Of a stretch of DNA of 64,000 nucleotides, positions 24,797-56,115 are shown piece by piece. The position numbers were made by a program, and so were the translations under genes. Position 1 is the stretch's first letter, and each line of letters begins with the position of its first letter. The notes under the pieces were generated by a model that was not told the DNA's origin, ran no database searches, and was given only the letters and a program-made list of their open reading frames with translations. The DNA comes from Terrimicrobiaceae bacterium (GTDB taxonomy: Bacteria > Verrucomicrobiota > Verrucomicrobiia > Chthoniobacterales > Terrimicrobiaceae): positions 434,001 to 498,000 of the forward strand of contig JAGYIV010000010.1 of the NCBI GenBank assembly GCA_018402345.1, in the 5' to 3' direction.

Positions 24797-25075
24797 TCAG
24801 GCCGCAGCGGCCTTCGACATGCCCGCGAGCGCCTTGTTCAAGCGGCTCTTACGGCGGGAGGCCACGTTGCGGTGGATGATTCCACGCTTGGCAGCCTTGT
24901 CCAATGCCGAGGCGAATTTTTCAAACTGCTCCTTCGCTCCCGCCGCATCGCCCGAAGCGACCACGCTGTTGAGTTTTTTCTGACTCGATTTGATCGCGGA
25001 AATGACGCTCGCATTCCGGTTGTGGCGGACGATGCTCTGACGAGCGCTCTTCGCTGCTGATTTTGTGTTGGCCAT
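24797..25075 (-). CDS. rpsT: 30S ribosomal protein S20
   Basis: A 92-residue, lysine- and alanine-rich protein beginning MANTKSAAKSARQS, the standard S20 start. The C-terminal half has IHRNVASRRKSRLNKAL, the conserved 16S rRNA-binding segment. S20 binds the 5' domain of 16S rRNA early in 30S assembly. The gene stands alone between a tRNA gene and a membrane protease gene, with a strong terminator. Only 14 bp separate its start from the tRNA 3' end, so the tRNA and rpsT are probably transcribed together and then processed. Confidence 0.96.
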   Translation of the reverse strand: MANTKSAAKSARQSIVRHNRNASVISAIKSSQKKLNSVVASGDAAGAKEQFEKFASALDKAAKRGIIHRNVASRRKSRLNKALAGMSKAAAA

Positions 25076-25089
25076 AAAAATTTTTTTGG

Positions 25090-25164
25090 TGGTGCCAGAG
25101 GGGAGAATCGAACTCCCGACCAAGGGCTTATGAGTCCCCTGCTCTACCGCTGAGCTACCCTGGC
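25090..25164 (-). tRNA. tRNA with anticodon CAU (tRNA-Met elongator, or tRNA-Ile2)
   Basis: A full cloverleaf of 75 nt with encoded CCA. The acceptor stem is GCCAGGG with CTCTGGC. The D stem is GCTC/GAGC, the anticodon loop CTCATAA, and the T arm GGGAG-TTCGATT-CTCCC. The anticodon is CAU. The paired first acceptor base and the lack of three consecutive G-C pairs at the base of the anticodon stem argue against initiator tRNA. Elongator methionine and lysidine-modified isoleucine tRNAs cannot be separated with certainty by eye. Confidence 0.92.
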
Positions 25165-25451
25165 AAGTCTTTGTTTTTTGGGTTGTTCCAGAGCCCGCGA
25201 CGCGCTGGACACCATCTCCATGCCACGCCACCGACAGCCGCCGGACCGCGCACCATAGCGCCCCGCCTCCCGGAGGCAAGCCAAAATCTCCTCCAAAAGC
25301 GCGAAATGACCCGAATGTAAACTGCCCGCAACTTTTTTGGCCGACCGGCCATTTTTTTTGCGGAATCCCGGCTGTCGGCTGCATCAAAGCCAAGGCGCAC
25401 ATCGTCACATCAGTCGCCAAAACGGTCGCATGAACCACGCTCCCACTTTTT

Positions 25452-25907
25452 TCAATCGAACCAAAGGAACTTGCGCCACAGTCCCGTGGTTTTAATGCGA
25501 TTTTCTTCTCGGATTCCAAAAGGGCTTCCCTCGGAGACATCGGTTTCCAGAAGTCCCATCCTGTAGAGCGGATAGTAAACATAGCCTGCAAGATACGGGT
25601 CCTCGTTCATGTAATCGGTCGCGGCATCCTGCAGGTTGCGCAACGGCACCGGCAGCAGAATGCGACTGGCAAGACCCGCGACGGGCGTCCAATCCCGCAC
25701 TTCCGTGTCCATCCTCCAGAGGATTGCGGGCATGGTCGCTTGAATCCCTGGAAATTCGCGATGGGGCATGTCGTAACCGAGATTGTAGCGCTGGAAATAG
25801 GCCCGAAAAATCTCCATGACCGCGCGGATCGTCTCGCGCCAACTCTGCGGCATGCTGAGGCGCTCGAAAACGCTCTCCACAAACGTGCGGGTCAGATTTC
25901 CACCCAT
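25452..25907 (-). CDS. Hypothetical protein
   Basis: A protein of about 151 residues starting MGGNLTRTFVESVFERLSMP; an in-frame start 15 codons upstream (25952) is possible. It has no signal peptide, membrane segment or recognised motif. It is rich in aromatic residues (YFQRYNLGYD, YVYYPLYRMG) with a conserved-looking run MPAILWRMDTEVRDWTPVAGLASR. It stands alone in a 1-kb interval between the tRNA/rpsT unit and the tRNA-Phe fragment, the last gene before the putative island boundary. The 287 bp between it and the tRNA (25165-25451) show no feature I can support. Confidence 0.55.
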   Translation of the reverse strand: MGGNLTRTFVESVFERLSMPQSWRETIRAVMEIFRAYFQRYNLGYDMPHREFPGIQATMPAILWRMDTEVRDWTPVAGLASRILLPVPLRNLQDAATDYMNEDPYLAGYVYYPLYRMGLLETDVSEGSPFGIREENRIKTTGLWRKFLWFD

Positions 25908-26185
25908 GCCGCCGCTTTCTCTATAGACGCAATAGTAAAAAACCATCCCCAACCAACACTATCAACCATCCGCCGAAAAAACCGCCAGTTGTGAGAGGGG
26001 GTGCCAATGGATCGGAAACGATTGTTTTTTCAACTCGCTTACAAAAGGCTGTGTGGAGAATTTCAGTTTGATCTTTGATGCTGTAAACGACACCGGAAAA
26101 CATCGCTGTAAACAGAACGACATTATCACACTCAGCAGTTTTCCGGGCAACAAGACCGCGCCGAACCGCATAAACAGTGGGGGAG

Positions 26186-26232
26186 TGGCTGGACCCGGAA
26201 TCGAACCGGGGACAAGAGGATTTTCAGTCCCC
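26186..26232 (-). other. tRNA-Phe 3' fragment; probable integration (att) site
   Basis: Read leftward, 26232-26186 gives the anticodon arm GGGGA-CTGAAAA-TCCTC (anticodon GAA, phenylalanine), a five-base variable region, a complete T arm (CCCGG-TTCGATT-CCGGG) and the 3' acceptor strand TCCAGCC plus discriminator A. The 5' half (acceptor strand GGCTGGA and D arm) that should lie at higher coordinates is absent. A tyrosine integrase gene starts 66 bp away on that side. This is the expected outcome of site-specific integration into a tRNA gene, which leaves a 3' fragment at one boundary of the element. Confidence 0.7.
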
Positions 26233-26297
26233 GTGTTTGCGTAGGGGGCTTGACTTCGGCGGACAGTTGGCGGATAGATTTGAGGGTATCAATTGCC

Positions 26298-27620
26298 ATG
26301 TCCAAACCCCCGGCAAAAAAGCGCGCTAAAAAGCTCATAGCCGACCTTCCTTCCGGCGTTTCGGTCATAGGCACCCAATCCGGGCGAGGTCGACGGTATT
26401 TCCGCGTTCGCCTCGGCAAGAAGTTTACGGGAGGCCTGGTGTCGAAAAGGGATTTTCCAAACCTCTCGGAGGCGAGGGACTGGATTTTTGGTTCCAAGAG
26501 CGGAATGTCCCCCCACAAGGCCAATCCCGGTGCGATTCTGGATTTGAAGGACAAGGCTGGAACGAGCGCGTTTTTGCTTTCGCCGGCTCAACTCGACGAG
26601 GCGGCTGCAGCCATTCGGAGATGCGGAGAGGCGGGCTTGAGTTTGACCGGAGCGGTCGAGTTTGCGGTCCGGCATGCCAAGCCGCAAGCGGGAACGCTCG
26701 ATGTCGCCAAGGCGATGGAACTGGCCGCGAATGAAAAAACGAAGGGCGGCAAGGCTCCGAGCTATGTCGCCGATCTCAAAAAACGCTGGAAGCGATTCAA
26801 GAACTGGCTGCCTGCTGCCAAAAGCAAGGCGATCAATTCCATCGGTTCCCATGATGTGAGGAAATTTTTGACCGCCTGCTCGCTGAAGCCTGCGGGGGAG
26901 CGCAACATGCTCAGGAACCTCTCCGTTCTCTTCACATGGGCCGTGAAGCACCATTATGCCGCAAGCAATCCCTGCGAGGGAATAAGCGTGGAGAATAAAA
27001 CGGCAAAAGCCCCCGTTCGGATTTTGTCGCTCGAGGAGGCCTGCAAAATCCTGAAAGTTTCCTCTGAGGGCTTTGAGGTGGATGGGGGCTGGAAAGACCC
27101 GATGCTTGCCAAGTTGTCGCGTGTGGAGGCCATGGAGATGGTCCCTTTTGTGGCCGTGGGAACCTTCGCGGGGCTCCGACCCGAGGAATCGATGGGCCTT
27201 GATTGGAAAATGATCGACCTGAGCGCTCGCCACATCGACATCCCGGCCTCCCTGGCCAAGGACCGGAACCGGAGAATTGTGGAAATTTCCGACAACCTTC
27301 TCCAGTGGTTGGAGACTTGTCGGAGGAAATCCGGTTCGATCATTCCGCAGAACTTTCGCCGAAAACGCCGGGCGCTTTGCAGAAAAATGGGCTGGGACGA
27401 GTGGCCGAAGGATGTCCTCAGGCACTCGTTCGGGTCCTACCATCTTGCCATGCACAGCAATGCGCCCCAAACGGCCGAACTCATGGGCCACCGGGATGTG
27501 AAGATGCTCTACCGGCATTACCGCGAGGTCATCAAAGACAAAGGCTCTGTCCAGGCTTACTGGGAGATCGTCCCGGGGGTTCGGCTGAAGGAAAAAAAAG
27601 GGCCGCGAAGAGCCCCTTGA
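26298..27620 (+). CDS. Tyrosine-type site-specific integrase
   Basis: A 440-residue phage-integrase-family recombinase. The catalytic arginines are R294 in FAGLRPEES and the one in DVLRHSFGSYH (about residue 375). The next catalytic pair is LMGH (H398), and the nucleophile is Y408 in YRHY, ten residues after that histidine. The first histidine of the HxxR motif is replaced by aspartate (KDVLRH), a position that varies in related integrases. An N-terminal DNA-binding region and a core-binding domain (about residues 135-230) precede the catalytic domain. The start is MSKPPAKKRAKK at 26298. Codon usage has less C-ending bias than the core genes to the left. It lies next to the tRNA-Phe fragment and probably integrated the element there. 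Confidence 0.92.
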   Translation: MSKPPAKKRAKKLIADLPSGVSVIGTQSGRGRRYFRVRLGKKFTGGLVSKRDFPNLSEARDWIFGSKSGMSPHKANPGAILDLKDKAGTSAFLLSPAQLDEAAAAIRRCGEAGLSLTGAVEFAVRHAKPQAGTLDVAKAMELAANEKTKGGKAPSYVADLKKRWKRFKNWLPAAKSKAINSIGSHDVRKFLTACSLKPAGERNMLRNLSVLFTWAVKHHYAASNPCEGISVENKTAKAPVRILSLEEACKILKVSSEGFEVDGGWKDPMLAKLSRVEAMEMVPFVAVGTFAGLRPEESMGLDWKMIDLSARHIDIPASLAKDRNRRIVEISDNLLQWLETCRRKSGSIIPQNFRRKRRALCRKMGWDEWPKDVLRHSFGSYHLAMHSNAPQTAELMGHRDVKMLYRHYREVIKDKGSVQAYWEIVPGVRLKEKKGPRRAP

Positions 27621-27693: not shown

Positions 27694-28711
27694 GGGGTCA
27701 GTCCCGCGTATTGACGCTTTTTTGAAATTTGTCATATTCCACCTATGGCGAGACAACTTCGAATCGAATATGCGGGGGCAATTTATCATGTGATGAGCCG
27801 GGGGGACCGGAAGGAGAGCATTTTTTGGGATGACGAGGACCGTCGGGGATTTTTGCGGACGCTTGGGGAGGTCTGCGGGCGTGCGGGTTGGCAGGTGCAT
27901 GCCTATTGTCTGATGGGCAATCATTTTCACCTGGTGCTGGAGACGCCGCAACCGACGCTGGTGGCGGGGATGAAGTGGTTTTTGGGCACCTATACGCAGC
28001 GATTCAATGTGCGGCACCGATTGAGGGGGCATTTGTTTGCTGGACGCTACAAGTCGCTGTTGGTGGATGGTTCGGATGATATGTATTTGCGCGTGGTCTG
28101 CGACTATGTGCATCTGAATCCGGCGCGGGCGGGGTTGCTCGGCGAGCAAGGGAGGTTGGAGGATTATGCTTGGAGCAGTTTTCCCGAATACCTCAAGCCG
28201 GCGAAGCGAAGGGTCGGGTGGTTGCGCGTGGACCGGTTGTTCGGGGAAATGGGAATCCGGCGGGATAACAAAAGGGGAAGACGGGAATTCGGGGAGATCA
28301 TGGCACGGCGTTGCGGTGTGGAAGGTCATGCGGATGAGGAACTCTGGAATGGAATTCGACGGGGTTGGAAACTGGGGTCGGAGGATTTTGTCGAGCGCTT
28401 GGTTGCGATGGGGCACGGCGGAGGAGGCAATCCCTTGATCCATTCGAGGGAAGCGGTGGAGGAGACGATGGAGGAAAAAGCACGGGGAATCATGAGAGGG
28501 TTTTTAAACGAGCGGGGGATGGGGTTGGAGGAATTCCGCAAGCTCAGAAAGGGGAATGTAGACAAGATTCTTCTGGCAATGGAGTTGAGGAGTAAAACAA
28601 CGATGACGATGGCTTGGATCGCAGAGGAGTTGAATGCGGGCACGCCTCAGACACTATGGCGGGCATTGTGGGCAATCACCAAAAAATGCGATAATACGCG
28701 GGACTGACCCC
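27694..28711 (+). mobile_element. RAYT-type transposable unit with 19-bp inverted ends
   Basis: The transposase gene is bounded by perfect 19-bp inverted repeats: GGGGTCAGTCCCGCGTATT at 27694-27712 and its reverse complement at 28693-28711. The right end overlaps the last codons of the transposase. No clear target-site duplication is visible. The right end is followed by a second partial copy in a 23-bp tandem repeat and then by the truncated esterase gene. Confidence 0.75.
27745..28707 (+). CDS. REP-associated tyrosine transposase (Y1/HUH family)
   Basis: A 320-residue single-strand transposase of the RAYT/TnpA-REP family. The HUH metal site is in MGNHFHLVLE (near residue 72) and the likely catalytic tyrosine in GTYTQRFNVRH. 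YAGAIYHVMSRGD at the N-terminus, RGHLFAGRYKSLLVD and VVCDYVHLNPARAGL are the standard conserved blocks. The C-terminal third (residues 200-320) is an extension that resembles a DnaA-like or helix-turn-helix tail seen in longer RAYTs. The ATG at 27745 lies 32 bp inside the left inverted repeat. The gene looks intact. Such proteins mobilise or maintain short palindromic repeats. Confidence 0.92.
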   Translation: MARQLRIEYAGAIYHVMSRGDRKESIFWDDEDRRGFLRTLGEVCGRAGWQVHAYCLMGNHFHLVLETPQPTLVAGMKWFLGTYTQRFNVRHRLRGHLFAGRYKSLLVDGSDDMYLRVVCDYVHLNPARAGLLGEQGRLEDYAWSSFPEYLKPAKRRVGWLRVDRLFGEMGIRRDNKRGRREFGEIMARRCGVEGHADEELWNGIRRGWKLGSEDFVERLVAMGHGGGGNPLIHSREAVEETMEEKARGIMRGFLNERGMGLEEFRKLRKGNVDKILLAMELRSKTTMTMAWIAEELNAGTPQTLWRALWAITKKCDNTRD

Positions 28712-30241: not shown

Positions 30242-33200
30242 TTATTGCCCTAACGGGATTGGCTGGGTGTAAAGTTTTTTGACTTTGTATTGGGCTGGGG
30301 TGGTTTCTGTCGCGGGAGTGGTGATTTCGACTTCCACTAAAGTTTTGGTGAGGGCTTCGGAGTCGGCTATGAAAGGATTGCTGGCGCTTTCGGGTTGGTT
30401 TTTATTCTGGAGTTGGCCTGCTTGCGCGTAGGCGTAGATGGTGAAAAAGTTGCTGCAGGTGGTGAGACCGGGGAAGAAGGCGCTCAGGCGGCCTTCATTT
30501 TCTTTGATGCTTCTGTATGCGGGACTACCACTATTGATTTGGTAGCTATGATATTGGCTTCTTCGGCCGTAATCCGCCACGCCTCGGATTTCGGTAACCT
30601 CTCCTGGCAGGATGAGCGATGTGGCGGGCCAGTTTCTCGCGGTGCGCCAAGCGCTCCATGTGCTATTTTCCGTAGACCACTTGGTGGAGCTGTTGCTGGT
30701 GATATTACTGCTAATCGATGTGGCAAATGGCGTATTGCCCCGGAAAGTAATAAAATCAGTCCCTTGGTGTCTCATATCTACTTTGTCGAAAGTCATATTT
30801 GATCCGCTTACTGTTCGAGCCAGCGCGCTGCCGAGTTGGAAGTCCGTATCTGAGGTGCTTTCCAGCGCTTGCACCAATGCCGGGATATTGTTACGGGGGG
30901 AAATTGTGCCGTTATTGATGCTGGTATCTACTGCAAAAGCACCATTGGGATTTATCGGGGCGATTTTAAGATTTGAGGAAGAGGAGGAATTGGATGAAAA
31001 GGAAATCACATCCAACATCGCCCAGTCGGGGATAAGATTTCTGGCATTCTCCCTTTGATGTCTCGGCATGAAGCGCAACCGGCGCCAGTTCACATTGGTG
31101 GGGACTTTACCGAGGTCGCTCGGTGAATTAAAAGTCGCGTTCCCAGTCGAATCCAGGGTATAAAGCTTCCGGGGCAAATAAATCCAGGAATGTTCTGTCG
31201 TAATAAAGTAATCCGGCTCTTCAGCTCCCATGGGGCTCGGATCTCCAGGAATATCACGAGTTTCAGTCTCCGAGGGCCGCAGACCATATCCACCATAATA
31301 CGTATTATGCCCTCCAGTAGAATTACTAGATGCATTGTGAGTTTTCTGAGTATAAATAGCGGCGCCTATTCTCGGATATGTATATGGTGCCACGGCCCAT
31401 GCCGTTTCCCCTTTAACGCGGGAGTCGATGCGTTGGAGGGTTAAGTTTCCGCTAAAGTTAGCTAGTGCCTCTGAATTTAAATGGTCCGATGAGGTTTTAA
31501 TAGGCGTGTTTAAAACAATCGTTCCATTAATACCTAATTTACTCATAATGAATGACCCTGTAAGCCAATCTCTTAAGGCATCAGAAGAGTTGGATGATCC
31601 CGCAAAGAGCTTCACATCTCCCATAACCAAAGTAGGATTCCCCACGATCGACCAAGGGAGATTGTTATTGCCGTCAAAGTCAGGTGTGTCCGTGTCATTA
31701 AGGATATACTGCTCACTTGTAAGCTGACACCAATAGGGAAGTCGATTCCCAACGGACCCATTTGTAACAAATTTAATTGCATCAAGGAGAGTGAAGGGTC
31801 TGCTTAGCGTGAATGGCCCAATAGTGCGGTTTGTTGTATTTCCTAATGAATCGCGCAATGTAAATGTAAGACTCTGGATTGTAGCTTCCAGATAAACTCC
31901 AGTGTTGCCATAAGGATAATAGCTTGCAAATAAAAATTCAATAATAGGCATGGGATAAAGAAGAATGCCACGCCCCCCACCGGGCCCCTCATCATAATCA
32001 CTGTAATTGATTTTGAAGCCAAATTCATTGATGCAACCAGTTGGAATATCGGCATAATATCCAGATGGCGGAAAAGTCGCCGTGCCATTCTCACTAATGA
32101 CAGGACCAGTATAAGAGCTTTGGACTGTGGGAATATCGTGCGACCCCGGCGTGCGCATCTGCAGCATATTGGCGATTGTTTGCTTGAGGCCGTTAACGGT
32201 GGTGTTTGAAGTCTGTGCCATATTGCCAGTCCAACTCCATGGTTGGCCGTATTTGTCATTAAATGTCTGGCCGTAAATGTTCCGAAGAAATGTGCTGTTC
32301 AGAGAATTGTAAACGATATCGACGCCGGTAGAATTCAGCGGAACTTCAGCTTGGTCATTGATGTGCAAGCGGCGCGCTCCCCACGGGGTGTATTTGAGGT
32401 GGAAGTCACTCAAGGGAGCGGTGCTGATGTTGGACATCTGGTTGCCACTGAATCCAGTGACTCCAGCTGCTTGCTCATCCCGGAAAAAGTGCCCCCAATT
32501 GGTTATATCAGATGTGCTTGAGCCACTGCCATCAATTGTGTTTCGAAAATTAGTAAGATTTCCAGTCGTAAAAGCAGATAGAGACATGGACCGCGGGGTC
32601 GAAACATTAAGAGTCGAGCGGTTTTCCGTCGCTGCGTTGATGTTTATTTTAGTTAACTCGTCATCAATATAATACGCTATACGGCCGACGAGATTCCCTT
32701 CGGCATCTCTGATCTCCTCCATGTTGACATTGATTTCCTCGGAGGAATTTCCTGTCAGGGATAAAGTGCTGGTCGCATTCCCGACGGGGTTGGAGAGGTT
32801 GTTGAGGTTGGCTATCTCTGCGCTGGAGTTTCCAGCAAGTGGCGTGCTTGTGCTGTTTACCGTGAGATTCCCTGAAGAAAATAACTCCACCGTGGTGTTT
32901 TGAGTCACTGTGCCGTTTTGAAAGAAATACTTGTGGATCGCACCTGGTTGGGTCGTGACGACAGAGGTGTAATTTCCGGTGAGATTGCCTGTTGTATTGA
33001 AGCCTAAAGCGATTTTCGCCATGGCCTGCTGGGTGGCGAGTTCGGCGAGGCCGGTGGCGGCGTTTTGATTGGAGAAGTTGCGGGCGGCGAGTTGTTCGAT
33101 GCGGGCGGTGGAGAGGAAGCCGACGACGGTGGTGGTGAGGAGGGCGATGACGAGGAGGACGAGGACAAGGGCGCTTCCAGAGTCAGCGTGTTTTTCAAAT

Positions 33201-33256
33201 AAACGACGCTTCATGACGGCAAAAGCGCATGCAGGGAGAGGACGAAAAGTATGCAT
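30242..33256 (-). CDS. Verru_Chthon cassette protein A-like, pilin-type N-terminus
   Basis: A 1004-residue protein. After a basic start it has one hydrophobic helix (SALVLVLLVIALLTTTVVGFL, residues 28-48) followed by STARIEQLAARN and AATGLAELATQQAMAKI, like the N-terminal helix of pseudopilins and PilX-type minor pilins. The rest is long, beta-rich and unusually rich in Asn, Ser and Thr. This is the layout of Verru_Chthon cassette protein A, known from Verrucomicrobiota, where it is normally accompanied by cassette proteins B, C and D. None of these partners is adjacent here. It is probably anchored by the N-terminal helix and exposed outside the inner membrane, perhaps through a type II secretion or type IV pilus-like system. 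Codon usage is AT-richer than in the flanking genes. Confidence 0.55.
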   Translation of the reverse strand: MHTFRPLPACAFAVMKRRLFEKHADSGSALVLVLLVIALLTTTVVGFLSTARIEQLAARNFSNQNAATGLAELATQQAMAKIALGFNTTGNLTGNYTSVVTTQPGAIHKYFFQNGTVTQNTTVELFSSGNLTVNSTSTPLAGNSSAEIANLNNLSNPVGNATSTLSLTGNSSEEINVNMEEIRDAEGNLVGRIAYYIDDELTKININAATENRSTLNVSTPRSMSLSAFTTGNLTNFRNTIDGSGSSTSDITNWGHFFRDEQAAGVTGFSGNQMSNISTAPLSDFHLKYTPWGARRLHINDQAEVPLNSTGVDIVYNSLNSTFLRNIYGQTFNDKYGQPWSWTGNMAQTSNTTVNGLKQTIANMLQMRTPGSHDIPTVQSSYTGPVISENGTATFPPSGYYADIPTGCINEFGFKINYSDYDEGPGGGRGILLYPMPIIEFLFASYYPYGNTGVYLEATIQSLTFTLRDSLGNTTNRTIGPFTLSRPFTLLDAIKFVTNGSVGNRLPYWCQLTSEQYILNDTDTPDFDGNNNLPWSIVGNPTLVMGDVKLFAGSSNSSDALRDWLTGSFIMSKLGINGTIVLNTPIKTSSDHLNSEALANFSGNLTLQRIDSRVKGETAWAVAPYTYPRIGAAIYTQKTHNASSNSTGGHNTYYGGYGLRPSETETRDIPGDPSPMGAEEPDYFITTEHSWIYLPRKLYTLDSTGNATFNSPSDLGKVPTNVNWRRLRFMPRHQRENARNLIPDWAMLDVISFSSNSSSSSNLKIAPINPNGAFAVDTSINNGTISPRNNIPALVQALESTSDTDFQLGSALARTVSGSNMTFDKVDMRHQGTDFITFRGNTPFATSISSNITSNSSTKWSTENSTWSAWRTARNWPATSLILPGEVTEIRGVADYGRRSQYHSYQINSGSPAYRSIKENEGRLSAFFPGLTTCSNFFTIYAYAQAGQLQNKNQPESASNPFIADSEALTKTLVEVEITTPATETTPAQYKVKKLYTQPIPLGQ

Positions 33257-33564: not shown

Positions 33565-36500
33565 TTAAATTCTGATCCGCCGTTTGCGCCACATCCACAC
33601 GCTGCTGCCCAGCACGAGCAGGATGCCGGTGGCCCAGGTTTCGGGCTCGGGCACGGGGCGGATTTCGTAGGGGTTGATCCCTTCGATGAAGCTGTTGCCG
33701 ATGAAGCCCGTGCCGAACCCGCTGTAGAAGCTGATGTAGGGCAGGCTGTCGGAGAGGTTCGTGTTGCTGCCGAAGGAGATGTGATCCGAATACAACGTGT
33801 AGTTGTAGATTTTCAGTTGGGTGGTGCTCGTCAGCTGGGTGACCAGATTCGAGAACTCGAGCGCGATATTGCCCCCGCCCATGTCGATCACGGAGTTTGC
33901 CGAGAGCGTGAGCGCTCCCACAGTTTCGTTGATGTTCCCGTTGAACTCCAATGTGCCGCCGGCGAGGTCCATGGCCGCCGATTCGTTGATTGCGTTGTTG
34001 GCTCCCACGAGGAGCGATCCGCCGTTGACGGTGATGTTGCCGGTGCTGGCCAGTGATCCGGTGGCGTTGGCTTCGAGTGTGCCGAAATTGATCTCCGTGT
34101 CGCCGGTGAAGGTGTTTGCGGCATTGAGTTCCAGCGTGCCATTTCCCTCCTTGGTCACCCCGCCACTTCCGCCGATGGAGCCGTTGATCGAAAGCGTTGT
34201 GCCGTCGGCGACATCGTAGGTTGTGTTCTGCGCGGTGATCGCTCCGCTGAGGGTGACTGTCTGGTTCGACACCACATTGTAAATCGACATGGCGTTGGCG
34301 ATCGTGCCGGTCGTGTCGAATGTCAGCAGGGACGTGCCGTCGGTCTGCGTGATTGTTCCCGAACCTGCCGCGGCGGCGTTGCCGATCACCAGCGTGCCGG
34401 TGTTCAGCGTGGTGCCGCCGCTGTAGGTGTTCGAGCCCGTGAGGGTGAGGGTGTTGGAGGCGTTTTTGATCACATTTCCCGAGCCGGAGATGGCATTGGC
34501 GACCGTGAGTGCATTCGAGCGGTTGAAGACCAGTGAGCCGTTGTTGGTGACGGCTAGGGAGTTCAGGGTGCCGGTGGTGCCGCCGTTGCCAATTTGTAAA
34601 GTGCCCGCGCTGATCACGATGTTGCCATTTAAGGTATTTGTTGACCCGGTGAGCACCAGGGTTCCCGCCCCCGTTTTTTCGAAGCCGCCCCCCCCGGCAC
34701 CATTGGTCAGTGAGCCACTGGCGGTCAGCGTGTCGTCGATTCCCACATCGAAGACCAATCCCGACATCCGAATATCGAAATTGCCGGAGAATGTTCCGGT
34801 GTTGGAACCAGCCAAATCGAGCCGGTAGCGTCGCTTGCCGTCCGTGGCGGAATTGCGGGCGAAGATGTTGTTGGAGTTTGAAATCGTGAGCCCGTTCGCC
34901 GCCAACTCGATCGTTCCGTCGTTCTCCCAGTCAACACCGCCCGTTCCGAGCGCGTTGTTGTGCTCCAATTTCACGGCTCCGGCCGTCAGGTTGCCAACAT
35001 GGACGCCCATGACAAGGCTGCCCGATCTCGTATTGCTGCCTGAGAGGGTCAGCGTGCTGGAGGCTAATTTGTTCAAGGATCCCGCACCACTGATCGTGCC
35101 GGAGAGGGTTTGGTTGGCGGTGCTATTGTAGGTGAAGACACCCGCACCCCCTATTGTGATATTCCCGGCGTAGCTCCCCCCGCCGAGTTGTCCGGCCCCA
35201 GTGATTTGCAACGTGCCGGCATTGATCGTGGTCGCGCCGGTGTAGGAGTTCGATCCCGTGAGCGTGAGGGTGTTGGAGGCGTTTTTGATCACATTTCCCG
35301 AGCCGGAGATGGCATTGGCGACCGTGAGTGCATTCGAGCGGTTGAAGACCAGTGAGCCGTTGTTGGTGACGGCTAGGGAGTTCAGGGTGCCGGTGGTGCC
35401 GCCGTTGCCAATTTGTAAAGTGCCAGCGCTGATCACGATGTTGCTATTTAAGGTATTTGTCGCCCCGGTGAGCACCAAGGTTCCCGCCCCCGTTTTTTCG
35501 AAGCCGCCCCCCCCGGCACCATTGGTCAGTGAGCCACTGGCGGTCAGCGTGTCATCGGTTCCCACATCGAAGACCAATCCCGACATCCGAACATCGAAAT
35601 TGCCGGAGAAGGTGCCGGTGTTGGAACTAGCCAAGTCGAGCCGGTAGCGTCGCTTGCCGTCCGTGGCGGAATTGCGGGCGAAGATGGTGTTGGAGTTTGA
35701 AATCGTGAGCCCATTCGCCGCCAACTCGATCGTTCCGTCGTTCTCCCAGAAGATACCGCCCGTTCCGAGCGCGTTGTTGTGCTCCAATTTCACGGCTCCG
35801 GCCGTCAGGTTGCCATCATGGACGCCCATGACAAGGCTGCCCGATCTCGTATTGCTGCCTGAGAGGGTCAGCGTGCTGGAGGCTAATTTGTTGAAAGCTC
35901 CTCCACCGCTGATTAGGCCCGAGAGGGTCTGGTCGGCGGTGCTGTTGTAGGTGAGGGCACCCGCACCCCCTATTGTGATATTCCCGGCGTAGCTCCCCCC
36001 GCCGAGGCGGCCGGCTCCATCGATCACCAAAGTGCCGGCGTTGATAGTGGTGGCCCCCGAATAGGTGTTGTTGCCGGTGAGGGTGAGCGTGCTGGCGGCG
36101 TTTTTCGTCAGAGCGCCCGTGCCGCTGATGATGCCCGAGAGGGTCTGGTCGGCGGTGCTGTTGTAGGTGAAGGCACCCGTCATCACAATATTCCCGGCGT
36201 AGCTCCCCCCGCCGAGGCGGCCGGTGCCGCCGATTTCCAAAGCGCCGGCGTTGATGGTGGTGGCCCCCGAATAGGTGTTGTTGCCGGTGAGGGTGAGCGT
36301 GCTGGCGGCGTTTTTCGTCAGAGCGCCCGTGCCGCTGATGTCGCCGGAGAGGGTTTGGGCATTCGTGCCTGAATAGATGAGTGAGACGCTGTTGGTGATC
36401 GTGTTGCTGTAGGATCCCGAATTAAGGCGGCCAGCGGCACCGATCTCCAGAGCGCCGGTGTTGATCACGATCGAACCGGGGGCCACATCCATATTGATCG

Positions 36501-38682
36501 TTTGGGTATTCAGCGAGTTGTTGATGATCGAGCCATTGACTGTGAGCGCCATGCCCCCGATGGCACCGGCTGATCCGGCATTGGCGGCCAGCGTGTAGGC
36601 GCCCGCGCCATTGCGGAATTCAATGTCGTTCACTGTAGTCAGCGTGCCGTTCGAGATGTTGTTGGTCGCCGTGCCCCCGGCTCCGGAGAAGGCGATCGTA
36701 TCGCCCTCGGTGACTGCCGGGGAAAAGCCTGTGTCCCAATTGGCAGTGCCTCCTGTCCACACTGGGTCGCCCGAAGCTTCGTAGCTTAGCCGGATGATCC
36801 CGCCGCTGGGATTGCTGAAGCTCCAAGTGCCCGTGCGGTTGCCGACGGCGATGCCGAAGTTGGTGAAATCGATTGAGAAATTCCCTGCCGAAAACCCGCT
36901 CACGCTGTTGGCGCTGATGATGTCCCAGCTGTAGGAATTGGCCCCATTCCAGTCCCCCGGCGTGCCATATGCATACACGGTTAGCGCTCCCGAGGAGGTG
37001 AGCGCTCCCGTGCTGGTGATCTGATCCCAGCCCGAGCCTGCCGAGCCGTTCGCGGTATTGAGCGTCCAGTTGTAGCCGCCGCCGTTAATCGTGATCGAGG
37101 AGGTGCCGAAGGAGTCTGCCGCTGCGGTGCTGCCGGGGGAAATGATGGCGCCGGAGTTGATCACCAGACCGCTGTTGGCGATGTTGCCGTCGATCTGCAG
37201 GGTGCCGGCGTTGATCGTCGTCGAGCCGCTGTAGGTATTGGTGTTGGAGAGTGTCAGCGTGCCGGTGCCTTCTTTCGTCAGGCTGCCGCCTGTGCCGCTG
37301 ATCACACCGGAGTAGGTGGTGCTGCTGGAGGAATTTGTGGTTAGGGTGTAGCTGGAGAGATTCAACGCACCGGCACCGGCGATGGCACCGAGGTTTTGGT
37401 TTGCCCCGAGAGTCAGCGTGCCGGCGTTGACTGTGGTGGTGCCCGTGTAGGTGTTCGCGCCAGAGAGGGTAAGTGTGCTCGAGGCGTTTTTGGTGAGGCC
37501 GCCTGTGCCGCTGATCACGCCGGAGAGCGTCTGGGCATTTGTGCCGGAGTAGATGAAAGTGCCGGAGTTGGAAATCGTGTTGCTGTAGCTGCCCGAGTTG
37601 AGGCGACCGGAGGCCCCGATCTCAATGGCGCCGGAGTTGATGACGATCGAGCCGGGAGCCACATCCATATTGATCGTCTGGGTGGAGGACGAGTTGTTGG
37701 TGATCGCTCCGGTGACGGTCAGGGCCGAGCCATTCCCAGCGGATCCGGAATTCGCCACAAGGGTGTAGGCTCCCGCTCCGGAATCGAACAAGATGGAACC
37801 TATGGAGCTCAAGGTTCCACTGGCGATGTTGTTCGTTGCGGTTCCACCGGCCCCTGTGAATTCCACTGCATCGCCATTCGCAACTGCAGGGCTAAACCCG
37901 GCACTCCAATTTCCGCTTCCACCTGCCCATGTGGAGGGCAACTTCGTGATGGCAAGTTGGATATCAAAGGTTGCATCATTGTAGGACATCGAGGCGGAGT
38001 AGCCTGTATTGTTGAGGTAGGAAAAATTGCCTGATTGAAACGAGGTGGCATTGAGGGTGCTATAGCTGCTGGCAGAAAAATCCATCAGCGTCAGCGTGGT
38101 GGAGCCGCCGGTATAATTATTAAAATCAACAACATAGGTTTGATTGGCGGTTGTCGTGACGCCCCCTACCATAATTCGGTATGGTGTAAGTGTCGAGAAA
38201 CCGGAAGCACCCAAGATAAACTTCGTGGTGTTGTTTGCCTTGAACTCCCAGTTCGTCAAGTTGACGATGGCGCCATCGTAAAAATTCAGTGTCGCCCCGT
38301 TCATATCCCAGAAATTCAACCCTGATAAACTGGATCCCGATTCGACGGTGACAGTGGACCCGCCGAGTCGGATCACGCCGCCTGTTGTCGCATTGACATT
38401 CGAAGTCCAGACCGAGTTACCCGAGATGGTGATGTTCAAGGCGGGGAGGGCGACACTGGTGTAAACAGTATCGCCGTTGTTGATGATGACGGTATCGCTG
38501 GTTGCAGGGAGCGTGTCGCCGCTCCAATTCGCCGCAGTGCCCCAGACATTCGTTCCCGCGCCATTATCCCATGTGCGAGTCGCGGCATGGAGACTCGGTG
38601 CGGCTAGCAAAGCCAATGCCAGAGCGGCTGCGCGGGCGAACGAAAGGATACGAAGCCGAAAGAAAAGGGGGTGATCATTCAT
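33565..38682 (-). CDS. Autotransporter-associated beta-strand-repeat protein with PEP-CTERM anchor
   Basis: A 1705-residue exported protein. Residues 1-33 are a signal peptide ending in APSLHAA. The body consists of dozens of short parallel-beta units of the autotransporter-associated beta-strand-repeat type, seen as recurring blocks such as TLTLSGANTYTGTTTVNAG and SGAITIGGAG. The last 25 residues form a PEP-CTERM sorting signal: VPEPETWATG, a hydrophobic helix, then WRKRRIRI. It lacks a C-terminal autotransporter beta-barrel, so export to the surface would follow the PEP-CTERM/exosortase route; no exosortase gene is in the window. Internal repeats are close to identical at the DNA level in one 1.6-kb stretch. 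A regulatory palindrome lies 56 bp upstream of its ATG. It could be a surface adhesin or a polysaccharide-binding matrix protein. Confidence 0.9.
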   Translation of the reverse strand: MNDHPLFFRLRILSFARAAALALALLAAPSLHAATRTWDNGAGTNVWGTAANWSGDTLPATSDTVIINNGDTVYTSVALPALNITISGNSVWTSNVNATTGGVIRLGGSTVTVESGSSLSGLNFWDMNGATLNFYDGAIVNLTNWEFKANNTTKFILGASGFSTLTPYRIMVGGVTTTANQTYVVDFNNYTGGSTTLTLMDFSASSYSTLNATSFQSGNFSYLNNTGYSASMSYNDATFDIQLAITKLPSTWAGGSGNWSAGFSPAVANGDAVEFTGAGGTATNNIASGTLSSIGSILFDSGAGAYTLVANSGSAGNGSALTVTGAITNNSSSTQTINMDVAPGSIVINSGAIEIGASGRLNSGSYSNTISNSGTFIYSGTNAQTLSGVISGTGGLTKNASSTLTLSGANTYTGTTTVNAGTLTLGANQNLGAIAGAGALNLSSYTLTTNSSSSTTYSGVISGTGGSLTKEGTGTLTLSNTNTYSGSTTINAGTLQIDGNIANSGLVINSGAIISPGSTAAADSFGTSSITINGGGYNWTLNTANGSAGSGWDQITSTGALTSSGALTVYAYGTPGDWNGANSYSWDIISANSVSGFSAGNFSIDFTNFGIAVGNRTGTWSFSNPSGGIIRLSYEASGDPVWTGGTANWDTGFSPAVTEGDTIAFSGAGGTATNNISNGTLTTVNDIEFRNGAGAYTLAANAGSAGAIGGMALTVNGSIINNSLNTQTINMDVAPGSIVINTGALEIGAAGRLNSGSYSNTITNSVSLIYSGTNAQTLSGDISGTGALTKNAASTLTLTGNNTYSGATTINAGALEIGGTGRLGGGSYAGNIVMTGAFTYNSTADQTLSGIISGTGALTKNAASTLTLTGNNTYSGATTINAGTLVIDGAGRLGGGSYAGNITIGGAGALTYNSTADQTLSGLISGGGAFNKLASSTLTLSGSNTRSGSLVMGVHDGNLTAGAVKLEHNNALGTGGIFWENDGTIELAANGLTISNSNTIFARNSATDGKRRYRLDLASSNTGTFSGNFDVRMSGLVFDVGTDDTLTASGSLTNGAGGGGFEKTGAGTLVLTGATNTLNSNIVISAGTLQIGNGGTTGTLNSLAVTNNGSLVFNRSNALTVANAISGSGNVIKNASNTLTLTGSNSYTGATTINAGTLQITGAGQLGGGSYAGNITIGGAGVFTYNSTANQTLSGTISGAGSLNKLASSTLTLSGSNTRSGSLVMGVHVGNLTAGAVKLEHNNALGTGGVDWENDGTIELAANGLTISNSNNIFARNSATDGKRRYRLDLAGSNTGTFSGNFDIRMSGLVFDVGIDDTLTASGSLTNGAGGGGFEKTGAGTLVLTGSTNTLNGNIVISAGTLQIGNGGTTGTLNSLAVTNNGSLVFNRSNALTVANAISGSGNVIKNASNTLTLTGSNTYSGGTTLNTGTLVIGNAAAAGSGTITQTDGTSLLTFDTTGTIANAMSIYNVVSNQTVTLSGAITAQNTTYDVADGTTLSINGSIGGSGGVTKEGNGTLELNAANTFTGDTEINFGTLEANATGSLASTGNITVNGGSLLVGANNAINESAAMDLAGGTLEFNGNINETVGALTLSANSVIDMGGGNIALEFSNLVTQLTSTTQLKIYNYTLYSDHISFGSNTNLSDSLPYISFYSGFGTGFIGNSFIEGINPYEIRPVPEPETWATGILLVLGSSVWMWRKRRIRI
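34440..36068. repeat. Tandem near-identical 819-bp repeats inside the beta-strand-repeat gene
   Basis: Corresponding positions are 819 bp apart (for example 34451 and 35270), a whole number of codons (273). The two copies differ at only scattered bases over most of their length. To the right (about 36010-36360) two further shorter units of roughly 175-185 bp also repeat almost exactly. Confidence 0.85.
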
Positions 38683-43351: not shown

Positions 43352-44617
43352 TTATGTGCTTGGGAGATGTTGCCCGGCGGGGCGTTCGGATTGCGGGGCC
43401 GTGGCGTTATTGTCTTGGAGGGGGGTGTCGCCGGAGTTTTCCGGCTCGATCCACTCAATCTCGCCGGCTTCGTTTTCGATATCCACGCGCACTTTGGCGT
43501 GGGCGAATTCGCGGGTGTAGGTGAATCCATCGCGGACCGCCGGGCCTTTGGGCGCACCGAGTGGACGCTCCAACTCCGGCGGGCGTTTCATCCAGACCTT
43601 GCTGGTGTCGGACCGGTAGCCATCGTGCGCGAGGAAGTAGCTGTGTTCCTCCGCGCAAACGAGGAAGAGCGCCAGCAGATAGGTGAAGCGTTTGTTGTAT
43701 TTGTCATTTTCCTCCAGACCCTTGCGGATTTCATCCGTGCCCTGGGGATTCATGTCGCCCTCCTCGTCGTTCAATCCGGAAAGCCCGGCCGTGAAGGCGA
43801 TCAGGCTGCCCTCGCGCGCCGCTTTCTGGAACGCCTCGATTCCCTTGGCCACATTTTCATTCCTCTTTTCCGGGGTTGTCCCGTGCTCGAAGCCCTCGAT
43901 GTAGGAGCCGTCAAACCGCTTCAGCTCGACCGACGAGGAATCGGGGAGACCGGCACGGAGGACATTGGCCAGGAGAATCTTGTCCGGTCCCAGCGCTTCC
44001 CTTGTCTCACGCATCATGGTCTCGTATCCGGCACGCACGGCGGCTTTTTTGTCTTTTCCGATGTCCTTCTCCAAGAACCCGGGCCTCAACACCTTGACCA
44101 CGCCATCCAAAAACAGGCCATCGATCGCGGGATCGGAGCACACCTCTTTGGCATGGCCGACCCACCAATCCCGCACTTCGCTGTTGCTCAAGTCATAGGC
44201 GCGCATTTTTTTGCGAATCAGCTGTGTTTTTCCTTCGCTCCCGGTGAGGAAGGCATCGGGGATCTTCTCGATCCCGTCGTTGGCCTTGTAGGTGCCGTAG
44301 TGCACGATGACATTGCGGTAGTATAAAATCCTCGCCGAAGGATTGATCTTCTTCACGGCTCTGGCCGCGGCGAGGGTGCCGTCCTCGGTGGATTGGAAGG
44401 CCTGGAACCCGGTGGTTTTTTCGAAGGTCACCAAAGGAAACGACGCAAGGTAGGCGATCTCGGCATCCGTAAACTTCTTGGCTTTGCGGATGTGCATATA
44501 CTGCGGCACGCGGTCCCATGAGAACGCGGGCAGGCGCTCGGGCGGTTGTGCCCGGGCGGGCAAAACGGAAGCCGCCACCAAGGCGAGACAGGCGGCCAAG
44601 CAGGAGCGCGGGATCAT
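43352..44617 (-). CDS. Putative glycoside hydrolase (GHL15-like), secreted
   Basis: A 421-residue protein with a signal peptide ending in LPARA. The body reads as a TIM barrel: ARILYYRNVIVHYGTY, RDWWVGHAKEVCSDPAIDGLFLDGVVK, DKILLANVLRAG and RFDGSYIEGFEHG, with acidic residues at strand ends (FLD in the fourth strand, IEGFEHG in the sixth) as expected for catalysis. This matches the proposed hypothetical glycosyl hydrolase family 15 (GHL15). The substrate is unknown. It lies between the GH36 gene and the esterase gene in the leftward operon, downstream of an apparent internal terminator. Confidence 0.65.
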   Translation of the reverse strand: MIPRSCLAACLALVAASVLPARAQPPERLPAFSWDRVPQYMHIRKAKKFTDAEIAYLASFPLVTFEKTTGFQAFQSTEDGTLAAARAVKKINPSARILYYRNVIVHYGTYKANDGIEKIPDAFLTGSEGKTQLIRKKMRAYDLSNSEVRDWWVGHAKEVCSDPAIDGLFLDGVVKVLRPGFLEKDIGKDKKAAVRAGYETMMRETREALGPDKILLANVLRAGLPDSSSVELKRFDGSYIEGFEHGTTPEKRNENVAKGIEAFQKAAREGSLIAFTAGLSGLNDEEGDMNPQGTDEIRKGLEENDKYNKRFTYLLALFLVCAEEHSYFLAHDGYRSDTSKVWMKRPPELERPLGAPKGPAVRDGFTYTREFAHAKVRVDIENEAGEIEWIEPENSGDTPLQDNNATAPQSERPAGQHLPST

Positions 44618-47061: not shown

Positions 47062-48939
47062 TCACTCGGCGCGCGTGGCTCCGAGCGGGATGGCGGCGTG
47101 GGCGTAGGTGTTGTTTTTGTCGGATGCCCGAACCGGCTTCGGGTGGCTGACCAGAAAATTGTTCTCATCAACGAGGTTGATGTAGACGTGCGTGGCTTCC
47201 GGCGGGAGGGTGGCTTTGACCACGCCGTTATCGATCTCGCCGAACGCGCGGAACCACTCCTCGGTCTTTTCGTTGGGGTGGATCGCGTAGATCACATCGG
47301 CGCGCACGACGCGGGCGCCGTTCTCTTGGAAGGTCGCCGTGACCGTGTGGCCGTCCACCGTGTGCCCCGTGACGGCGGGGACTTTCTCTTTGTTGGGCAG
47401 CGCGAATTTGCAGTCGGAATTCCAATAGGGAAGGCTGGCCTGCATCTCGGTGAGGATTTCGGTGAGGCGGGCATTCAGCGCGGCGGCCTTGTCGGGCAGT
47501 TCGGCGGCGAGGTTTTTCGACTCCTCGAAATCCACGCGCGCGGGCTTGCCGTTTATCGTTTCAGTCAGCCTGTAGAGTTCGAGCGGAGGCACATTACCGC
47601 TGTGGGTATCGTAGTTGCGGATGAGCTTGAAATCCCCCGCGCGGATCGTGCTTTGGAAGGATGTGGAGCCGCCATGCGGGTAATGCCAAACCATCTCCGT
47701 GCGCGGCTTGCCGTGCTGATCGAGCACGAGCGAAGGATCGTTCGCCGCTCGGGTGAGCAGCGGCAGGAGATCGGCGCCGTCGAGGTTTTTCCCCTCCGGC
47801 TTGGCGATGCCGGACATCGAGAGAATCGTGGGATAAAAATCGAGGCCGTTGACCACGACATCGCTCTCCTTGCCGGCGGGAATGCCCGGGCCGGCGACGA
47901 GGAACGGCACGCGCACGCCGCCTTCCTTGGCCGACATTTTGCCTTTGTCGAGCGGGGCGTTGTCGGTGATCACCTCGTTGCGCGACCCCTCCATGCCGCC
48001 GTTGTCGGAGGTGAAGAAAATGTAGGTGTTGTCGATGAGCTTGTGCCCCGGATTGCGCGGGTCGTCGGTGGTTTCGAGGAACTCGACGAGTTGGCCGACA
48101 TAATGGTCGAGCGTTTCCACCATGGCGCAGTAGTAGGGATTTTTCTGGCCCTCTAGCGTCCACTCGCCGGGATCGGTCGGGAAATCCACACCGAGCTTCT
48201 GGCAGTATTTTTCGAGAAGCGCCTTGCTGCGCGAATAAATCGGGGTGTGGACGAGCCAGGTGGCGTAGTAGAGGAAAAAGGGCTTGGCCTTGTTGGTCTC
48301 CATGAACTCCAGCGCGGCGATGGTCACCGGGTCGGTGGGGAAGCCCTCGGCATCGAGCCGATAGGGATCGCCCGGGCGATCGGTCGAGAAGTCTTGGACG
48401 CGGTTTTTCATGCCGGACTGCACCCCGCGGGCATCGAAGCCGCTGCGGTGCGTGGTGAAGTCGAACCCTTGGTCCAACGGGCCGGGAAACGAGTAGTGGT
48501 CCTTGGCCATGTGCCATTTCCCGGTGTGCCCGGTGGCGTAGCCGTGCTGGCGCAGAATCTTGGTGAGCGTGAGTTCGTTTTCCGGCATGCGGCCGCTATA
48601 CCAAGGGGTGACCAAGGCCGCGTTGACCGGTGCCACGGGCGGATCGCCACCGACGACATGGGTTTTTTGGGCTCGGGCGGGGTGGTTCCCGCTGATGATC
48701 GCGCAACGGCTCGGAGCACAGGTCGGCGCGGCCGAGTAGCCGTTGCGGAAGAGGACGCCGCGCTTGGCGAGCGCGTCGAGGTTCGGCGTTTCCATCGGGC
48801 TCGGCTCGTCGATGTCGTAGCACTTCACATCCTGCCACCCGAGGTCGTCCACAAGCATGAGAACGATGTTCGGAGCAGGGGCCGCGTGGGCGGCAATGGC
48901 CAGGGAGAGGGATAGGGCGAGGAGGGTGCGCTTGATCAT
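47062..48939 (-). CDS. Type I sulfatase (second of tandem pair), secreted
   Basis: A 625-residue sulfatase with a signal peptide ending in AAHAA. The formylglycine cysteine is C74 in TCAPSRCAIISG, matching CxPxR. Metal and sulfate ligands are visible as LMLVDDLGWQD and ITFFTSDNGG-type sequence (FFTSDNGGMEGS), plus HTGKWHMAKD. The C-terminal 150 residues add a beta-rich tail. It removes sulfate esters from carbohydrates and needs a formylglycine-generating enzyme, which is not encoded here. Its start overlaps the stop of the first sulfatase gene by 4 bp. The two sulfatases are only distantly similar, so they likely act on different sulfate positions. Confidence 0.93.
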   Translation of the reverse strand: MIKRTLLALSLSLAIAAHAAPAPNIVLMLVDDLGWQDVKCYDIDEPSPMETPNLDALAKRGVLFRNGYSAAPTCAPSRCAIISGNHPARAQKTHVVGGDPPVAPVNAALVTPWYSGRMPENELTLTKILRQHGYATGHTGKWHMAKDHYSFPGPLDQGFDFTTHRSGFDARGVQSGMKNRVQDFSTDRPGDPYRLDAEGFPTDPVTIAALEFMETNKAKPFFLYYATWLVHTPIYSRSKALLEKYCQKLGVDFPTDPGEWTLEGQKNPYYCAMVETLDHYVGQLVEFLETTDDPRNPGHKLIDNTYIFFTSDNGGMEGSRNEVITDNAPLDKGKMSAKEGGVRVPFLVAGPGIPAGKESDVVVNGLDFYPTILSMSGIAKPEGKNLDGADLLPLLTRAANDPSLVLDQHGKPRTEMVWHYPHGGSTSFQSTIRAGDFKLIRNYDTHSGNVPPLELYRLTETINGKPARVDFEESKNLAAELPDKAAALNARLTEILTEMQASLPYWNSDCKFALPNKEKVPAVTGHTVDGHTVTATFQENGARVVRADVIYAIHPNEKTEEWFRAFGEIDNGVVKATLPPEATHVYINLVDENNFLVSHPKPVRASDKNNTYAHAAIPLGATRAE

Positions 48940-50405
48940 GAGGAGTGGTCGGTGTCGGGATCCCAGAGCGGAAGTTCGCCTTGGGTGTTGCGGAGTTTTT
49001 GGATGGGAAATTCGCCCGGCTTGAGGTCGGGCAGGTCTTCATTGATTAGAAATGGAGGCAGGGAGTCCCACCAGGCATCGTATTGTTTCCGGAGATCGGC
49101 CACGACCTCGGGGTGTTCGGCGGCGACATCCCTGGTCTGGCCGCGATCGGCGGGGATGTCATAAAGTTGAGTGTTGTTCACCAAGCGCCAGCGACTGGTG
49201 CGCACGGCGCACTGGTTGTGTTTGGATTTCTCGCGTTCGCCGGGATTCCAGCGGCCGACATGGGTGATGAGGGTGCGGTCGGGCCAGTCGGCCTTGGGGT
49301 TTTCGAGCAAGGGAACCAGCGAGCGCCCGCCGGGTTGAAGGGGCGAGGGAGGAATTTCGGCACCGGCCAGATCGCAGAACGTGCGGTAGAGATCGATGTG
49401 GGCGACCAGCGCGGGGATGTCGATGCCTTCCGCGAAATGCCCCTTCCACATCCAGAACGACGGGACGCGTGTGCCTCCCTCGTGTGGCGAGACTTTGCCG
49501 CCCTTCAGGCCGGCATTGAAGTGGGGGATTTTTTTTCCGTGAATCTTGAGGGGTGCCATCGCCATGCCGTTGTCGGTCATGAAGACGACGAGCGTGTCCT
49601 TCAGCATGCCGCAGGATTCGAGGTCGGCGAGGAGGAGGCCGACATTGTGGTCGATATTTTCAATCATGCCGTATCGGGCGTCGGATTCCTGATCGAACCC
49701 GAGATCAAGAAAGCGTTTTTTGTATTCCTCCGGCGCGATCATCGGGTCGTGGGGGGCATTGAGCGGGATGTAGGCGAAGAATGGTTTTTTCGCGGCGTGT
49801 TGGCGGTTGATCCATGCCATGGCCGCACGGAAGAACAGATCGGTGCAGAATCCTTTCGTGCGAACGACGGTGTCGTTGTGCAAAAGCACATTGTCGAAAT
49901 AGGGCGTCTCGGTGTTCTCCCGGAAATCACCGTAGATGAACTGCCCGATGCCGCCGGATCCGTGCATGAGCACCTCGTCGAATCCGCGTTGTCGCGGCAG
50001 ATACGCTTGCCCGTCGCCAAGATGCCACTTGCCGAAAAGGCCCGTCGCGTAGCCGGCGCGCCGCAGGGCCTCGGCAACTGTAACCACTCCCGGCGCAAGG
50101 CGGTCGCGTTGCAGAATGGTGTGGGTGACGCCAACTTCGAATTCATGCCGCCCGCTCATAATCGCGGCGCGAGTGGGCGAGCAGGTCGGGCTCACATGGA
50201 AGTCGGTGAAGCGCGTGCCTTGGGCATGCAGGCTGTCGAGGTTCGGCGTCTTCAAATACGGGTTCCCCGTGCAGGAGAGATCGCCCATCCCTTGGTCATC
50301 AGTGAGGATGAAAACGATATTCGGCCGACTTCCCGAAAGCGGCTTGGCCCCGGCGGCGAAACCGAGGCTCGAGGCGGCGAGAAGAAGGATCGAGGGAAAT
50401 CTCAT
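48936..50405 (-). CDS. Type I sulfatase (first of tandem pair), secreted
   Basis: A 489-residue arylsulfatase-family enzyme with a signal peptide (LLLAASSLGFAAGA). The modified cysteine is C75 in TCSPTRAAIMSG (CxPxR). Other family marks are VFILTDDQGMGDL, LFGKWHLGDG, VFMTDNGMA and the histidine in THVGRW. It is the first gene of the six-gene leftward operon. Its ATG lies 80 bp from an operator-like palindrome at 50485-50508. Between them a -10-like TAATGC is spaced 18 bp from ATGACA at the edge of the operator. Confidence 0.93.
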   Translation of the reverse strand: MRFPSILLLAASSLGFAAGAKPLSGSRPNIVFILTDDQGMGDLSCTGNPYLKTPNLDSLHAQGTRFTDFHVSPTCSPTRAAIMSGRHEFEVGVTHTILQRDRLAPGVVTVAEALRRAGYATGLFGKWHLGDGQAYLPRQRGFDEVLMHGSGGIGQFIYGDFRENTETPYFDNVLLHNDTVVRTKGFCTDLFFRAAMAWINRQHAAKKPFFAYIPLNAPHDPMIAPEEYKKRFLDLGFDQESDARYGMIENIDHNVGLLLADLESCGMLKDTLVVFMTDNGMAMAPLKIHGKKIPHFNAGLKGGKVSPHEGGTRVPSFWMWKGHFAEGIDIPALVAHIDLYRTFCDLAGAEIPPSPLQPGGRSLVPLLENPKADWPDRTLITHVGRWNPGEREKSKHNQCAVRTSRWRLVNNTQLYDIPADRGQTRDVAAEHPEVVADLRKQYDAWWDSLPPFLINEDLPDLKPGEFPIQKLRNTQGELPLWDPDTDHSS

Positions 50406-55858: not shown

Positions 55859-55930
55859 GGAAACCAAAGCCCCGCGATGTTCCACGAAAACGCGCATCTT
55901 TGGAAATCCTATACACACCAATCCAAGAGT

Positions 55931-55954
55931 CATGTGATGCATTTGTCCCACATG
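55931..55954. promoter_or_regulatory. Palindromic operator candidate, site 3 (kinase/LamG divergent promoter)
   Basis: CATGTGATGCATTTGTCCCA is followed by CATG, with outer arms CATGTG and CACATG. It lies 73 bp before the kinase start and 162 bp before the LamG gene start. A 30-bp block from 55933 recurs with one mismatch at 62767-62796. Confidence 0.65.
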
Positions 55955-56115
55955 CGAATCCGTCGGCACGATGGTAATGATGTTTGAAGTTTGGTTCGTG
56001 GGCATGCGGTCACCCCGGTAGTGCCATGCTCCCATCCTCGCCCATGAAAATCTCCGCCGCAATCCAGCGATCCTTTTTCAACTGATCCTCCATCCCGAAA
56101 AAAACGCCCGACTCC

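Follow-up and report, generated by a model that had tools for sequence, protein, structure and literature searches.

Background

The primary source on tRNA subsite preference is reportedly Williams (2002). The Islander collection comprises, according to the accessible portion of its description, 3760 islands with a 3' tRNA fragment and 2083 with an anticodon-centred site, from 3919 candidates in all (PMC4383910). Islands of its class A use the anticodon subsite: a regenerated tRNA gene and a displaced 3' fragment form the flanks, a tyrosine integrase lies inside and the crossover falls at the anticodon. The locus described here, from a Terrimicrobiaceae bacterium, has the same plan; unlike the class A islands, its integrase subfamily, arm motif and cargo were not found described in the literature searched, as far as the accessible portions of those sources go.

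Two other systems offer useful comparisons. The actinomycete integrative and conjugative element pSAM2 combines a tRNA-targeting tyrosine integrase with a rolling-circle initiator protein, and related integrases of pSAM2-type elements have different tRNA targets (PMC3218068, in the part accessible). The tRNA-targeting integrase and the varied targets of its relatives have likenesses at the present locus, and the initiator protein a putative one; however, no FtsK-type transfer protein was seen among the island proteins scanned, and the candidate replication protein is recognised at motif level only and lies at the opposite island end. In the KplE1 prophage at argW, the promoter of the integrase gene intS overlaps an attachment region with arm-type sites, and intS is negatively autoregulated, in the accessible text of PMC2951348. 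Similarly, a putative arm site lies upstream of the integrase start in our locus, although this integrase adjoins the displaced fragment and gave no promoter match ahead of its start.

The window, that is the whole stretch of DNA analysed, covers 64,000 nucleotides (G000:C4:434001-498000) of a 3.14 Mb genome in 17 contigs with 45 tRNA matches. G, C and L numbers denote genomes, contigs and loci; coordinates are those of the window, and window-equivalent positions continue its numbering past the right edge.

A tRNA-Phe fragment beside a tyrosine integrase gene

The minus strand of 26186-26232 corresponds to the anticodon arm (anticodon GAA), variable loop, T arm and 3' acceptor strand of a tRNA-Phe, and unrelated sequence stands where the 5' half would be expected. 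ARAGORN and Rfam, run on the window, do not call this fragment as a gene, their only call being a tRNA-Met at 25090-25164. The integrase gene (26298-27620, plus strand; 440 residues; Pfam PF00589, E=3.5e-11) has its ATG at 26298, 66 bp from 26232. Residues R294, K321, R375, H376, H398 and Y405, which we take to have catalytic roles, are invariant in four homologues, and D372 is replaced by His in many relatives.

An earlier, sequence-only reading had claimed a tRNA-Phe 3' fragment without its 5' half, and a tyrosine integrase starting 66 bp off on the missing side. Both claims hold, the fragment matching the sole intact tRNA-Phe of the genome over 51 nt with one mismatch. Its placing of the fragment at 26186-26232 was correct as to the fragment itself and slightly shifted as to the shared core, which occupies 26180-26230 (minus strand), beginning at tRNA position 29 and reaching 6 nt past the 3' end into the trailer.

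Extent of the island

The same reading took the fragment and integrase for an island boundary, predicted an intact tRNA-Phe with the same sequence past the right edge, and put the island, if whole, above 37 kb. An intact tRNA-Phe(GAA) indeed lies at C4:507580-507652 (minus strand), 9.6 kb beyond the window edge and in the correct orientation, and supports the proposed boundary. The fragment and this gene share a 51-nt direct repeat, identical at 50 of 51 positions (26180-26230 in the window; C4:507574-507624, or window-equivalent 73574-73624, outside it), with tRNA position 44 as the sole difference (T in the fragment, G in the intact gene). In a search of 39 genomes with a tRNA-Phe query (E<=1e-3), G000 gave matches at two places only, namely the fragment and the intact gene. 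Both have the same orientation, and the missing side of the fragment faces the island, as expected for a displaced host 3' half. Given the direct repeat and the orientation, the island therefore runs from 26180 through the window end at 64000 to about window-equivalent 73573 (C4:507573), where it ends at the intact tRNA-Phe; its total length is about 47.4 kb, 9.6 kb of which lie outside the window.

The arrangement has the parts looked for in an island at an anticodon subsite: the intact tRNA-Phe and a downstream 3' fragment in the same orientation lie on one contig, 47.4 kb apart (within 2-200 kb), a tyrosine integrase is located between them, and the shared sequence starts at the anticodon stem-loop, here at position 29. 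Alternatively, the fragment might resemble a tRNA by chance, or be a broken duplicate that has nothing to do with the integrase; only the missing 5' half would speak for this. A chance match is contradicted by the sole intact tRNA-Phe of the genome, which matches the fragment in direct orientation with the missing side toward the island. Either version of this explanation is extremely improbable in view of the 51-nt direct repeat, oriented as predicted, and of four more genomes with the same arrangement (see below), and it was rejected.

At the left island boundary (window positions about 25000-27000) GC skew rises from about -0.2 into positive values; to the right of the island it is near zero.

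Host and element halves of the tRNA gene

Comparison with congeners indicates which copy belongs to the host. The trailer joined to the fragment (26144-26179, minus strand), identified by this comparison as the native host trailer, closely matches that after the uninterrupted tRNA-Phe of G001 and, over shorter stretches, those of G002, G004 and G012; the sequence after the intact tRNA-Phe of G000 is unlike it. Other trailers follow the tRNA-Phe of G003, G006 and G015, so that not every member of the genus has the fragment-type trailer. G005 shares the 5' side of the intact gene (a sugar transporter, 85% identity over 184 aa). Since the native trailer follows the fragment and not the intact gene, the fragment appears to be the displaced host half, and the comparison supports an intact end made of the host 5' half and an element 3' half, with the host 3' half at the fragment end. 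Position 44 is G in the tRNA-Phe of all 15 congeners, and the T of the fragment is best read as a change after displacement.

An empty site was not found by flank synteny among the tRNA-Phe regions of 15 congeners and 13 rpsT regions. The 5' sides of tRNA-Phe are common to subsets of congeners and the 3' sides are not, while the rpsT flank lies elsewhere; in no relative does the rpsT/tRNA-Met flank share a contig with tRNA-Phe. A tRNA-Arg is present upstream of the tRNA-Met of the rpsT flank in G013, G008, G011 and G002. When pairs of congeners with common 5' genes were compared, none of nine had common 3' genes (E<=1e-10, >50 aa; each 3' side spanning at least about 3 kb). These pairs were hand-picked, genomes with short 3' sides being left out, and comprise six among G007, G008, G011 and G013 together with G003/G015, G009/G014 and G000/G005. 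A variable 3' side next to a conserved 5' side (L095-L114) suggests that in this genus tRNA-Phe is a hotspot; no displaced fragment matching that of G000 in length was found in the congeners so compared, and other causes of 3' variation are hence possible.

Related elements and the integrase family

Matches to the integrase at E<=1e-3 are found in 122 of the 213 genomes of the order. The three best homologues belong to three other genera (G078, 60% identity; G018, 57%; G023, 54%), and each adjoins a tRNA-Phe 3' fragment, with side and direction as in the window. The intact tRNA-Phe lies on the same contig in G018, delimiting an element of 17.8 kb, and in G078 (about 14 kb), and on another contig in G023. 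The integrase of G084, with 42% identity over its length, adjoins a tRNA-Phe fragment too, the intact gene again being on another contig. These are the four loci with a tRNA-Phe fragment among 29 integrase loci examined; at another four of the 29, fragments of other tRNAs start at positions 25-30, namely tRNA-Met (L070, L084), tRNA-Thr (L092) and tRNA-Arg (L094), a weak tRNA-Cys match at L072 being excluded from the count. Most of the remaining loci are near intact tRNAs or near none.

In a tree built from 28 of 30 integrases, the two left out being short, the five tRNA-Phe-associated integrases form one clade (support 100/99), within which the window integrase stands outside the group of G078, G018 and G023. 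G078 is a member of another family, and G018 and G023 belong to the window's own. Because G078 groups with these two to the exclusion of the window integrase, the tree suggests that the tRNA-Phe elements have been transferred between families.

As for the host flanks of these elements, the gene that follows the G023 fragment is distant from tRNA-Phe in both G017 and G020; a search of three congeners, which had no positive control, did not detect the gene that follows the G018 fragment. At L104 and L105 the longest integrase reading frames extend back through the tRNA fragment, and automatic annotation could place the start inside the tRNA remnant. A further tRNA-Phe 3' fragment (positions 29-73) occurs at L167 (G105:C6:26426-26470), with no integrase of the present tRNA-Phe family detected nearby.

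The integrase family of the G000 element is apparently undescribed, and the island itself is of a well-known kind. Literature searches on tRNA-Phe islands or tyrosine-recombinase integrative elements in Verrucomicrobia and on islands in Opitutales returned nothing relevant, an absence from which it does not follow that the family is unpublished.

Putative arm sites and the crossover region

A tandem TCCGCC..TCCGCC with an 11-bp period at 26257-26274 (minus strand), 44 bp before the core, is a putative arm-type integrase-binding site. An identical 18-mer is located close to the opposite end of the island, outside the window (C4:507449-507466; window-equivalent 73449-73466). The motif stands 44 bp before the core in four of five elements (G000, G018, G023 and G078, that of G018 being a variant with ACGCC) and is absent in G084; in the same four elements it recurs at the intact end, 157-158 bp after the core start, these being all the intact ends tested. 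Across the whole genome of G000 the strict pattern has two matches, both at the island ends, and a reversed control pattern has none. Strict matches also occur elsewhere in G018, G023, G078 and G079. Two of these, in G023 and G078, follow a tRNA-Met gene or fragment at a distance of about 155 bp, which is consistent with sister elements in tRNA-Met; those in G079 and G018:C78, which have no tRNA-Met context, may be chance matches. Judged by position and form, the 11-bp-period motifs are putative arm sites bound by the integrase.

At L191 (G078:C138), around 1501-1719, a tRNA-Met fragment that begins at position 28 carries an arm-like repeat on its 3' side, as would be expected where two elements in tandem meet.

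The sequence common to both ends starts at tRNA position 27-29 in all five elements, and a repeat starting at the anticodon stem implies a crossover in the anticodon loop. A review describes, in its accessible part, a 7-bp overlap flanked by inverted core sites (PMC8371274). The anticodon loop CTGAAAA and its stem fit this layout, with the exact cut presumably at the loop.

A terminator beside the intact tRNA-Phe of G000 was also considered and is unsupported by folding, as the trailer there folds no better than shuffles (z 0.00). Hairpins resembling a terminator in G018, G023 and G078 are observations made by eye.

Cargo

The integrase gene is followed by one for a REP-associated (Y1) transposase-like protein (27745-28707, plus strand; PF01797, with NF047646 below its cutoff). 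Further inside, a Verru_Chthon cassette A-like protein, a weak match, adjoins a protein of 1705 residues with nine PATR autotransporter-type repeats (30242-33256 and 33565-38682, minus strand). The minus strand also encodes a glycosyl hydrolase GHL15 (43352-44617; PF14885, E=5.9e-38), two sulfatases (47062-48939, PF00884, E=7.8e-41; and 48936-50405, PF00884, E=3.1e-51) and, by profile matches, a LuxR-type response regulator (52248-53069) and a histidine kinase (52910-56062), the latter likely acting as the sensor of the degradation locus. On the plus strand are two LamG/concanavalin-like proteins (56116-60080; PF13385), the C-terminal part of an alpha-L-rhamnosidase-like protein of GH106 (60400-61503; PF17132, NF045579) and an alpha-L-fucosidase (62825-64000, on to window-equivalent 64369; PF01120, E=9.1e-77 with L033:2-1369 as query). 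Other cargo among the island proteins scanned includes a weak melibiase match, two esterase-like hydrolases, a kinase fused to a 3-keto-disaccharide hydrolase domain, and transposase-like proteins. Taken together, the cargo suggests the use of a sulfated polysaccharide containing fucose or rhamnose.

A HipA-like protein at 50523-51901 (minus strand) is split into two overlapping frames, N-terminal (50978-51901) and C-terminal (50523-51212), and is likely a frameshifted pseudogene or an assembly error.

The related elements carry other genes: type I restriction-modification genes in G078, and a type IIG-like enzyme, a PLD-helicase, a SEFIR-domain protein and a Fic protein in G018. Degradation genes at the same place without the integrase and fragment, which the sequence-only reading had named as grounds against it, were not encountered; the closest congener sulfatase homologues (82% in G008:C122, 79% in G005:C281) lie in differently arranged clusters, on contigs without tRNA-Phe.

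These homologues are relevant to another explanation, in which the boundaries are real and the DNA between them was not transferred as one unit, reflecting instead a small element with later accretion of genus genes, or a rearrangement of the flanks. Elements of the same family measure 14 and 17.8 kb as against 47.4 kb here, the flanks are not syntenic in congeners, and the second sulfatase is 79-82% identical to its congener orthologues, so that at least this part of the cargo may stem from the genus pool. However, both ends keep the arm motif at the exact spacing of the family, the gene at the tRNA end is common to G078, and the genome holds one fragment and one intact gene only. We consider such a composite origin unlikely, while giving it some weight; it bears on the cargo alone and could hold together with the insertion mechanism.

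A protein at the tRNA end

In the inserted element as we read it, the gene just inside the tRNA end encodes a protein of 475 residues (window-equivalent 71870-73297; L033:8870-10297), with a homologue of 47% identity at the same place in the G078 element. Homologues were detected in four of the 213 genomes of the order (G000, G018, G078 and G194). The G018 copy is on another contig, starting about 400 bp after a tRNA-Met, and the stretches compared of the G018 and G023 tRNA-Phe elements lack the protein. All four homologues match Pfam REP_ORF2-G2P (PF23343) below its cutoff (best E 0.016), and FxTxTF, HxH (H189, H191) and Y240 are invariant in their alignment. Motifs of this kind (FxTxTF, HxH and Tyr) mark HUH replication proteins. 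PADLOC, PHROGs and PDB searches with the end protein gave nothing useful, and the PDB search lent no support to a replication role. On the strength of its motifs, we regard the protein as a fairly probable HUH replicase.

An integrated phage or phage satellite is a much less attractive interpretation of the locus. The integrase does match PHROGs integrase families, but the Pfam matches of the island proteins scanned include no phage structural family (PHROGs was applied to five proteins), and viral contigs contain no relative of the integrase or the end protein, which leaves this origin quite improbable. Relaxases and conjugation machinery are likewise missing from the Pfam matches of the island proteins scanned, some small reading frames being outside the scan. 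Among plasmids the end protein has no relative and the integrase one distant match, at 21%; a scan of genome contigs yielded one distant integrase relative, in a record of an uncultured Verrucomicrobia bacterium.

Proposed mechanism and implications

The locus is thus very likely an integrative element that entered the anticodon region of tRNA-Phe by site-specific recombination. The integrase would have recombined an element-borne 3' part of the tRNA, from about position 29 on and with its own trailer, with the chromosomal gene, the crossover most likely spanning the 7-bp anticodon loop, with the anticodon stem as inverted core sites. The rebuilt gene at C4:507580-507652 would combine a 5' half from the host with a 3' half from the element, and the host 3' half would have been left beside the integrase gene at 26180-26230. 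The integrase probably also binds the tandem arm sites at both ends; with one of them just upstream of its start codon, self-regulation is possible. In an excised circle the integrase gene, attP and the gene of the putative HUH-type replication protein would be neighbours, and the element may still be mobile. If the HUH reading is true, excision would bring integrase, attP and replicase together.

More tentatively, and with somewhat less than even confidence, the elements may represent an undescribed family, probably of Verrucomicrobiota. It would be characterised by an integrase-attP-replicase module, integrases for the tRNA-Phe anticodon loop together with sister tRNA-Met integrases, shared 11-bp-period arm sites, an HUH replication protein at the other end, and interchangeable cargo, for breaking down polysaccharide in one host and for restriction against phages elsewhere, moved between bacterial families.

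A single tRNA scrap has in this way led to a mobile element with both boundaries defined and with attachment sites open to testing, to which the comparison adds the exact extent, the evidence of the host trailer, the conserved spacing of the arm sites and the exchange of cargo among relatives. The conserved spacing leads to direct predictions of attP, attB and the integrase binding sites. The same insertion machinery is associated with sugar-degradation genes in one bacterium and with anti-phage systems in others, and the island is one route by which the degradation of sulfated polysaccharides could spread.
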